From positions 1-58,566 of the forward strand of contig SDNY01000005.1 of assembly GCA_004524535.1 (NCBI GenBank): a DNA stretch of 58,566 bases, in the 5' to 3' direction. The DNA is from Promethearchaeota archaeon (GTDB lineage Archaea > Asgardarchaeota > Lokiarchaeia > Sigyniarchaeales > SOKP01). The notes below the pieces were generated by a model that saw only the letters and a program-made list of their open reading frames with translations, was not told the DNA's origin and made no database searches. Of this stretch, positions 1 to 56,912 are shown in pieces. Numbering within the stretch: the first letter of the stretch is position 1; each line of letters opens with the position of its first letter. The position numbers were made by a program, and so were the translations under genes.

Positions 1-259
<259 letters not shown>

Positions 260-10290: not shown

Positions 10291-10564
10291 CTTTTAATTT
10301 ATAAATAAACTAAATTCTTAAATATAAAATATTAAATTTTTTTTTTATAATAATTCATTGTTGAAAGTTTTTAAATAATCTATTAAAGCATTTTTTAATT
10401 AAAAAATCTATTAATTTAAAATTCATTTTTCTCTCAATTAATAAAAATTGCACTCAGAGTGAAAGGTTTTTATAAGATTTTATTATATTATTTTTTATTA
10501 TTGAATTTTAAAATTAAGTACTAAAATTTAAAAATTATTAAAAGAAAGGTTGTGAAAAGAGACA

Positions 10565-10882
10565 ATCAAAGACGAAGACATTTGTCCAATATGTAGTTTT
10601 CCAAAAGAATTATGTATCTGTGATGGCTTAAGTGCAGACGAACAACAAATAATCATCTCTAATGATAAACGCAAATGGGGTCGTGTTGTTACTGTTATTA
10701 CGTTTCAAGGAAATTTTGATGCTAATTTAAAGGATATATTAACAAAAGCTAAGAAAAAATGTGCTTCTGGTGGTACAGTTAGAGGGAATGAACTAGAATT
10801 GCAAGGAGATCATCGTTTTAAAATAAAAAAATTTTTAATTGACTTAGGATTCTCTGAAGAAAATATCTTGATTCAAGAATAA
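10565..10882 (+). CDS. translation initiation factor aIF1 (SUI1/eIF1), apparent ATC start
   Basis: The frame encodes DEDICPICSFPKELCICDG (zinc-binding CxxC...CxC), then the SUI1 domain with KRKWGRVVTVITFQG, KKKCASGGTV and the C-terminal LGFSEENILIQE, about 105 residues. aIF1 binds the 30S subunit and checks start-codon pairing. No ATG, GTG or TTG is in frame: a TGA stop (10553-10555) lies just upstream, and the only in-frame candidate between it and the zinc motif is ATC (10565) followed by KDEDIC. A GTG at 10552 is one base out of frame. The motif AAAGGTTGTGA upstream could act as a Shine-Dalgarno site. Confidence 0.85.
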   Translation: MKDEDICPICSFPKELCICDGLSADEQQIIISNDKRKWGRVVTVITFQGNFDANLKDILTKAKKKCASGGTVRGNELELQGDHRFKIKKFLIDLGFSEENILIQE

Positions 10883-33011: not shown

Positions 33012-33122
33012 AATTCGGTACTTTAACCATTATTAAAGTAATACGCGAATATTACTGTAATATTAATTTCTAATTTTTGTCTTTTTTTATAACATTAAAT
33101 TAAAATATTTAGGTGATTAAGG

Positions 33123-34241
33123 ATAGAAAGCTTCATTAGAACTGCCCGAAAAAGAGAGACACTCCATTCAAGAAGAGAGAATTTAGGCTATGCAAACATT
33201 AAAATTGTAGGTTGTGGAGGTGCTGGAAATAATACAATTGATAGATTAATGAAGATCGGAATTCAAGGAGCTAAATGTGTTGCCATAAATACCGATCAAC
33301 AACATCTTGATATGATAGATTCCCATATAAAAATATTAATTGGCAGGAATTTGACAAGAGGTCTTGGAGCAGGAGGAAATCCTGAGATAGGGAAAGCTGC
33401 GGCAGAAGAATCACGAGAAGAGTTGACTAAAATTTTAAGAGAAACAGATTTAGTATTTATCACTTGTGGCGAAGGTGGTGGAACAGGTACTGGAAGCGCT
33501 CCCATTGTTGCTGAAATAGCAAAACTAGAAGGCGCAATAGTAGTAGGCGTAGTAACCATTCCATTTGAAACCGAAATTGGTCGAATTACGAAAGCAAAAG
33601 AAGGATTAAACTTATTGAAACAATATGCTGATACATTAGTCGTAATAGATAATAATCGTTTATTAGAAATTGCTCCAAATTTACCAATTTTAGAAGCTTT
33701 TAGTGTATCTGACGAAGTTTTAGCGAGTATGGTAAAGGGTATTACTGAAACTATTTCATTGCCATCTTTAATTAATTTAGACTTTGCTGATGTTAGAACC
33801 ATCTTAAGTACTGGTGGTGTCGCTATCGTCGGAGTTGGTGAAAGTAATGGTACAGAAAATCGTGTAGACGAAGCTATTGATGATGCTCTTAATTTACCAT
33901 TATTAGATGTATCAATCAATGGTGCTAAAGGAGCATTAATACATGTTTGTGGAGGAAATGATATGACATTGGCAGAGGCTAATTCGGTAGCAAGAAGAAT
34001 ATATGAAAAAATGGATGTTAATGACTCCATGGTAATTTGGGGAGCACGGGTTTCCGATGAATTCAATGGTTATTTAAGAGTCATGTTATTAATAACTGGA
34101 ATATCATCACCACAAATTTTCGGTATTAACTCTGAGAACGTATCAAATTTCAATTCAAATCTGCCAGGAAATAAGACTGAACTTAATTCAACAAAATTAT
34201 CTGATGACATATTTGACATTCGCGAAATCACTTTCGATTAA
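33123..34241 (+). CDS. ftsZ: cell-division GTPase FtsZ, apparent ATA start
   Basis: Tubulin-family GTPase forming the division ring. The conserved N-terminus ANIKIVGCGGAGNNTIDRL is in frame but upstream of the first ATG (33249). Extending back gives ESFIRTARKRETLHSRREN, and the frame closes at TGA (33114-33116) with no ATG, GTG or TTG. ATA at 33123 follows an AGGTGAT Shine-Dalgarno by 5 nt and gives (M)ESFIRTA, a natural FtsZ beginning. Tubulin signature GGGTGTGSAP (about residue 119), NNRLLEIAPNLP and the T7 loop NLDFADVRT are intact; 372 residues. Confidence 0.93.
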   Translation: MESFIRTARKRETLHSRRENLGYANIKIVGCGGAGNNTIDRLMKIGIQGAKCVAINTDQQHLDMIDSHIKILIGRNLTRGLGAGGNPEIGKAAAEESREELTKILRETDLVFITCGEGGGTGTGSAPIVAEIAKLEGAIVVGVVTIPFETEIGRITKAKEGLNLLKQYADTLVVIDNNRLLEIAPNLPILEAFSVSDEVLASMVKGITETISLPSLINLDFADVRTILSTGGVAIVGVGESNGTENRVDEAIDDALNLPLLDVSINGAKGALIHVCGGNDMTLAEANSVARRIYEKMDVNDSMVIWGARVSDEFNGYLRVMLLITGISSPQIFGINSENVSNFNSNLPGNKTELNSTKLSDDIFDIREITFD

Positions 34242-41280: not shown

Positions 41281-41446
41281 GTAGATTTTAGCTCCAGAAA
41301 TTTAATTCTAATTCAACTAATATATATTAAGTTTTATTTTTTATAGAAAGATCTATTAAACAAAAAATATCTTTAAAATTTTTTTTTGAACATTTAACTT
41401 ATATTAATCCTATTTTATAAAAAAGAATAGAAAAAAATGTAAATGG

Positions 41447-41587
41447 TAGCGGGGGTTCGAGTTTCAGTTTGCTGGAAATCAGTATTTTATAACCTTTGAA
41501 CGAACGAGTCTGCTATTCATTCGACAATGAAAGAATATTCTCAGGGTTATGAGCCCTGCGGCATAAACCAGGCTAGCCCACCCCGCT
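41447..41587 (-). tRNA. initiator tRNA-Met(CAT) with variable-loop and T-loop introns
   Basis: Read on the minus strand: acceptor AGCGGGG/CCCCGCT, anticodon arm CAGGG-CTCATAA-CCCTG, T stem GTTCG/CGAAC, discriminator A and encoded CCA (41444-41446). Intron 1, 41508-41538 (31 nt), interrupts the variable loop: CTG/CAG, bulges GAA and ACT, inner TATTC/GAATA. Intron 2, 41461-41494 (34 nt), splits the T loop with a full BHB: outer GTTCG/CGAAC, central TTCA/TGAA, bulges AAG and ACT, inner GTT/AAC. Splicing gives a 76-nt tRNA with T loop TTCAAAT. The A-U-starting GC-rich acceptor is initiator-like. Confidence 0.93.
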
Positions 41588-41735
41588 TAAAATTATTCCT
41601 ATGAGTTATTTAAATAATGTTTATAACTTAATAGTAATCTTATCTTTAAAATTTTTATTATTATGTGGTGTTTTTTAATAAAAGAATAAAATAATTGTAA
41701 ATATTAATTGAAAATTCAAATAAAAGGAAAAGAAG

Positions 41736-53383: not shown

Positions 53384-56912
<3,529 letters not shown>

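Follow-up and report, generated by a model that had tools for sequence, protein, structure and literature searches.

A conserved AUU/AUC/AUA start codon in the aIF1 genes of Lokiarchaeia and its probable link to autoregulation

The window, meaning the whole 58,566-nt stretch of DNA analysed here (contig SDNY01000005.1 of the Promethearchaeota archaeon assembly GCA_004524535.1), contains an aIF1 gene whose reading frame begins without ATG, GTG or TTG (below, NTG). The features around its 5′ end are:

10547..10555, + strand: AGGTTGTGA, a conserved Shine-Dalgarno-like block 9 nt before the start codon (leader comparison)
10553..10555, + strand: in-frame TGA, the upstream limit of the aIF1 frame and also the last three bases of the Shine-Dalgarno-like block
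10565..10567, + strand: predicted aIF1 start codon ATC (ATT in 38 other loci sharing the leader block), with no NTG between the upstream stop and the zinc knuckle
10565..10882, + strand: aIF1 (SUI1) coding sequence, 105 aa when translation begins at the ATC (Pfam SUI1, E=4e-17)
10583..10621, + strand: aIF1 zinc knuckle CPIC...CIC, a conserved N-terminal landmark (frame translation)

The SUI1 domain of the gene product scored 62.9 bits against a cut-off of 25.5, which places it in the family, and the N-terminal zinc knuckle of archaeal aIF1 (CxxC...CxC) is present as CPICSFPKELCIC. The genome (3.66 Mb, 99% complete) contains no other SUI1 gene; no second, normally started aIF1 gene was found there, although a few relatives do carry two copies. 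After the TGA at 10553-10555 the sequence reads AAA GAG ACA ATC AAA GAC GAA GAC ATT TGT (KETIKDEDIC...), and the frame stays open until the stop TAA at 10880-10882. The first-pass annotation had stated that aIF1 lacks any ATG, GTG or TTG start, and this was confirmed: the first in-frame NTG, a TTG, comes at 10799, within the final quarter of the gene and far inside the SUI1 domain, so that 81 of the 108 codons of the open frame pass without one. The GTG at 10552 lies in a different frame. The range given previously, 10553-10600, runs from the stop through the spacer into the first codons; the ATC itself occupies 10565-10567. As a genome-wide control of start codons we used 508 kb of this genome with 448 coding ORFs, among which aIF1 ranked first for coding evidence ahead of the first NTG. 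From composition, an NTG-free stretch of 81 codons is expected in about 5% of cases and is not very rare on its own, so the claim is carried by the comparative evidence.

We gathered aIF1 loci from the genus, family, class and phylum of the window and from other archaeal phyla; those relatives that bear a name are 'Candidatus Lokiarchaeota' assemblies. A locus was counted as classifiable if its zinc knuckle could be read, and was then checked for an NTG between the upstream stop and the knuckle. In the window's family, 47 of 58 aIF1 loci had no NTG start. In 39 loci of this family, AGGTTGTGA precedes an AUH codon (AUU, AUC or AUA) at a distance of exactly 18 nt; the codon is ATT in 38 of them and ATC in one, the window. 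The AGG of the block always lies 18 nt before this codon, and the ten bases AAGGTTGTGA are invariant across 33 distinct segments, with the rest of the leader drifting in A/T. The third-position variation pattern of aIF1 codons begins at codon 2 after AUH (37 family loci): information at positions 1/2/3 was 1.86/1.93/1.18 in codons 2-6, as against 1.61/1.64/1.63 in the 18 nt upstream of AUH, where no codon pattern is visible. In addition, 13 of the 39 loci harbour a further in-frame stop three codons upstream of the ATT (TAA, once followed by TAG), which makes a translation start further up impossible.

The earlier choice of ATC as the best start is thus strongly supported by the fixed distance from the Shine-Dalgarno-like block, by AT[TC] in 39/39 loci, by the periodicity from the next codon and by the stops that close the other options. 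Conservation of the non-NTG start in related genomes, which had been proposed as a check, was seen in all 39 loci sharing the leader block, and the feature recurs in dozens of species. As far as the start codon alone is concerned, these data indicate that aIF1 is almost certainly translated from the AUH codon (AUC at 10565 in the window).

In most of the other family loci, a GTG is found inside GAGGTG or GGTAGTG, with the AUH codon at a similar distance behind it. A GTG that is in frame and lies within the Shine-Dalgarno-like region could serve as the start in four g2 genomes and in several second copies. A second, more divergent aIF1 copy in the relatives L005, L013, L018, L034 and L035 has a canonical GAGGTGA about eight nt before ATT or ATA, and in one relative an aIF1-like copy with a frameshift or stop (L060, G012:C390) appears to be a decaying extra copy.

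The GTG at 10552 is conserved inside AGGTTGTGA, and a 1-nt shift after it had been put forward as the alternative to the ATC start. Initiation at this GTG with a subsequent programmed +1 shift into the frame of aIF1 would need a conserved open frame up to the shift site. However, the GTG frame is closed after five codons in 37 of the 39 loci, which excludes this alternative; moreover, L010 and other genera have no GTG at the equivalent position, no codon periodicity was observed between GTG and AUH, and the GTGA is explained as a match to the anti-Shine-Dalgarno sequence. We therefore regard the frameshift as extremely improbable. The same short frame could instead couple translation, since GTG, four codons and a TAA overlapping ATT(AA) are found in 37/39 loci, and a ribosome terminating there might restart at the ATT. 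The TAA, however, is a by-product of ATT followed by AAA and is gone in the window (ATC AAA), and the arrangement is missing from other genera and families with AUH starts, which leaves coupling very improbable as well, if slightly less so. A homopolymer AAAA adjoins the start and the genomes are metagenome-assembled, so a sequencing error, a spliced upstream exon or a pseudogene might be suspected; the first-pass annotation had named resequencing that removes one A of this run, and an upstream exon, as ways in which its reading could fail. Yet the feature is shared by 39 loci from many independent assemblies, aIF1 is single-copy and under strong purifying selection, and the sequence ahead of the Shine-Dalgarno-like block shows no codon pattern. 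Such an artefact is hardly credible. The 39-locus comparison led us to reject the frameshift, coupled re-initiation, the spliced exon and sequencing error alike, in favour of initiation at the AUH codon.

Two parts of the translation machinery that bear on this initiation are encoded in the window:

1..257, + strand: 3′ end of 16S rRNA with the anti-Shine-Dalgarno sequence GGATCACCTCCT (Rfam RF01959)
about 41443..41588, - strand: putative initiator tRNA with the ordinary CAU anticodon (GGGCTCATAACCC arm, CCCCGCTACCA end), apparently with intron(s) (pattern search)

As the 16S 3′ end reads GGATCACCTCCT, the anti-Shine-Dalgarno sequence is normal and intact. Of the nine positions of AGGTTGTGA, 7 agree with the complement of the anti-Shine-Dalgarno sequence, AGGAGGTGA; the predicted duplex between leader and 16S is weak and imperfect (-6.2 kcal/mol, with 21% of shuffles as good). 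The initiator tRNA at 41443-41588 was called neither by ARAGORN nor by Rfam at the gathering threshold. A special AUH-reading initiator tRNA was considered and rejected: the pattern matches GGGCTGATAACCC lie outside tRNA genes, and the sole initiator arm found carries CAU.

Across the archaea, 66 of 167 classifiable aIF1 loci had no ATG, GTG or TTG start; ATT, ATC or ATA was found in its place, and CTG in some lineages. Elsewhere in the class, ATA is the apparent aIF1 start in families f6 and f7 and in some of f3. Among other Asgard families, ATA is located behind AGGAGG in f9 and f10 and, in some of f14, behind a leader of the AGGTTGA or AAGGTAA type, and CTG is found at the aIF1 start in f28 and f29. 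CTG is the likely aIF1 start in L171, L173, L192, L193, L182, L277 and L283, which include some Asgard and two non-Asgard genomes. Outside Asgard, 32 of the 35 classifiable loci have ATG, and three lack an NTG (one ATC, two CTG). The non-NTG start is not universal, since many Asgard aIF1 genes also have ATG. Its scattering over families suggests that the bad start arose, or was kept, in several lineages, while others use ATG.

As control genes we examined aIF1A, the companion initiation factor, and ftsZ. An in-frame NTG precedes the core domain in each of the 33 aIF1A loci read (15 from the window's family); it is typically an ATG ahead of a K-rich tail (MAKKK, MPKKK, MGKKK). The ftsZ start is ATG in 28/28 relatives read. 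The ftsZ gene of the window differs:

33123..34241, + strand: ftsZ with an apparent ATA start behind AGGTGAT at 33111-33117 (Pfam Tubulin and FtsZ_C)

Here, ATA GAA AGC stands at the aligned ATG position of the relatives, with AGGTGAT five nt ahead and no NTG between the upstream stop and the conserved motif. By this alignment, the window ftsZ is evidence, independent of aIF1, that this genome also initiates at AUA. The non-NTG start hence persists in aIF1 and not in the controls aIF1A and ftsZ of the relatives, yet AUH starts are also seen in some other genes of the window's genome. At the level of sequence, the comparison establishes the start codon, its conservation and its bias to the aIF1 gene.

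We then counted codons behind Shine-Dalgarno matches of six bases or better, at a start distance of 5-7 nt, in the 508 kb. ATT was enriched at start distance (9/58 versus 2/128, p=5e-4), as were ATT, ATC and ATA together (15/58 versus 11/128, p=0.002) and ATG (17/58 versus 9/128). GTG, TTG and CTG showed no enrichment at this distance in the 508 kb. About a dozen other candidate AUU- or AUA-started genes were found in these 508 kb, including ftsZ (ATA), an amidohydrolase and a cupin gene; of the candidates, ftsZ was the one compared with relatives. Six apparent ATT or ATA starts behind a Shine-Dalgarno match belong to genes encoding an amidohydrolase, an Ish1-domain protein, a possible HTH protein, a cupin and proteins of unknown function:

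L227:5991-6857, + strand: gene with apparent ATT/ATA start
L208:9089-10084, - strand: gene with apparent ATT/ATA start
L242:17078-18346, + strand: gene with apparent ATT/ATA start
L216:2687-3313, + strand: gene with apparent ATT/ATA start
L237:2675-3220, + strand: gene with apparent ATT/ATA start
L204:12201-12533, - strand: gene with apparent ATT/ATA start

AUH starts in other genes, among them ftsZ of the same window, were absent from the first-pass annotation. The ATA of ftsZ together with the ATT enrichment behind Shine-Dalgarno sites argues that AUH initiation is real in this genome; judged from sequence, it is conserved in aIF1 and occasional in other genes.

This raises the main rival to a regulatory role of the codon, namely that AUU, AUC and AUA are generally permissible in Lokiarchaeia near a Shine-Dalgarno site and that aIF1 is one of several such genes, its bad start doing no more than set a low level, with no feedback. 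The dozen candidate genes in the 508 kb and the enrichment of ATT at start distance speak for such a tolerance. However, a start that is simply tolerated should revert to ATG over time, and aIF1 has no NTG start in 47/58 family loci and in several further families, as opposed to one of 29 genomes for ftsZ and none read for aIF1A. General tolerance alone leaves the retention of a bad codon by aIF1 unexplained, and we consider it rather unlikely as the whole explanation.

The reading that we prefer joins the AUH start codon to negative feedback by aIF1, and we hold this combination to be fairly probable. The aIF1 mRNA of Lokiarchaeia would be translated from AUU, AUC or AUA (AUC at 10565 here). 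The Shine-Dalgarno-like sequence 9 nt ahead would position this codon, and the usual CAU initiator tRNA would decode it despite a mismatch at the third base. Bound to the small subunit, aIF1 would destabilise initiation complexes at AUH codons, so that translation of its own mRNA would fall as aIF1 rises, giving a homeostatic loop like that of infC. aIF1 of Saccharolobus (S. solfataricus) has been reported to discriminate against non-canonical start codons (PMC6237735, PMC8211752), which makes negative autoregulation, as for infC/IF3, the most likely purpose of the AUH start by analogy. We infer that the aIF1 studied here recognises AUH in the same manner, that feedback follows and that the cell benefits from it. 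Under a homeostatic loop, an AUU, AUC or AUA start is expected to persist in aIF1 and not in its partner aIF1A or in ftsZ; we take this pattern as a good argument for such a loop.

In bacteria, IF3 likewise binds the small subunit, checks the start codon and discriminates against AUU, AUC and AUA (PMC4611024). In both systems the gene of the factor that rejects non-canonical starts itself has such a start, AUU in infC and AUH here. Through its AUU start infC is under autocontrol, which disappears when the codon is changed to AUG (Butler, Springer and Grunberg-Manago 1987, in the reference list of PMC9845219). Autocontrol was measured for infC, whereas for aIF1 we infer it. As in infC, the start codon is conserved outside NTG, being ATT or ATC in the 39 loci and ATA, ATC or CTG in other lineages. 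In contrast to the infC/IF3 system, the archaeal initiator tRNA is delivered by aIF2. IF3 and aIF1 belong to different protein families. A homologue of aIF1 in the SUI1 family is eIF1, whose own mRNA likewise has a poor start and which is described as autoregulated through poor AUG context (Ivanov et al. 2010, as cited in PMC6237735). The eIF1 codon is an AUG in poor context reached by scanning, whereas that of aIF1 is a non-AUG codon that would be positioned by a Shine-Dalgarno-like site. In the annotation of S. solfataricus, a -1 frameshift interrupts the sui1/aIF1 gene (see PMC8211752), and unusual decoding has been suggested for aIF1 expression there, as here; that case concerns a frameshift within the gene, and the window a start codon with no such frameshift. 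The window gene belongs to the aIF1 family, and is a candidate for the class of autoregulated factors. In the open-access literature we found nothing on archaeal AUU/AUA starts of this sort, aIF1 autoregulation or Asgard start codons that describes the case.

If autoregulation is true, the bad start codon on a start-fidelity factor, known from bacterial IF3 and in another form from eIF1, would extend to aIF1 of archaea, and to a lineage near the eukaryotes, and the origin of eIF1 autoregulation would become a testable question. More tentatively, and with less than even confidence, AUU and AUA may be working starts in a few percent of Lokiarchaeia genes behind a Shine-Dalgarno site; aIF1 would then be both gatekeeper and permanent member of an AUH-started group, here including ftsZ, that its level tunes. 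Gene finders restricted to NTG must miss or misplace aIF1, and some other genes, in these genomes. The rarity of Shine-Dalgarno sites in Lokiarchaea has been stated from annotated starts (PMC7531240), and misplaced starts may bias such claims. Separately, the 16S 3′ end (1-257) and the 23S rRNA (53392-56908, + strand) are separated by about 53 kb that contains protein genes; these rRNA genes therefore do not form one operon.
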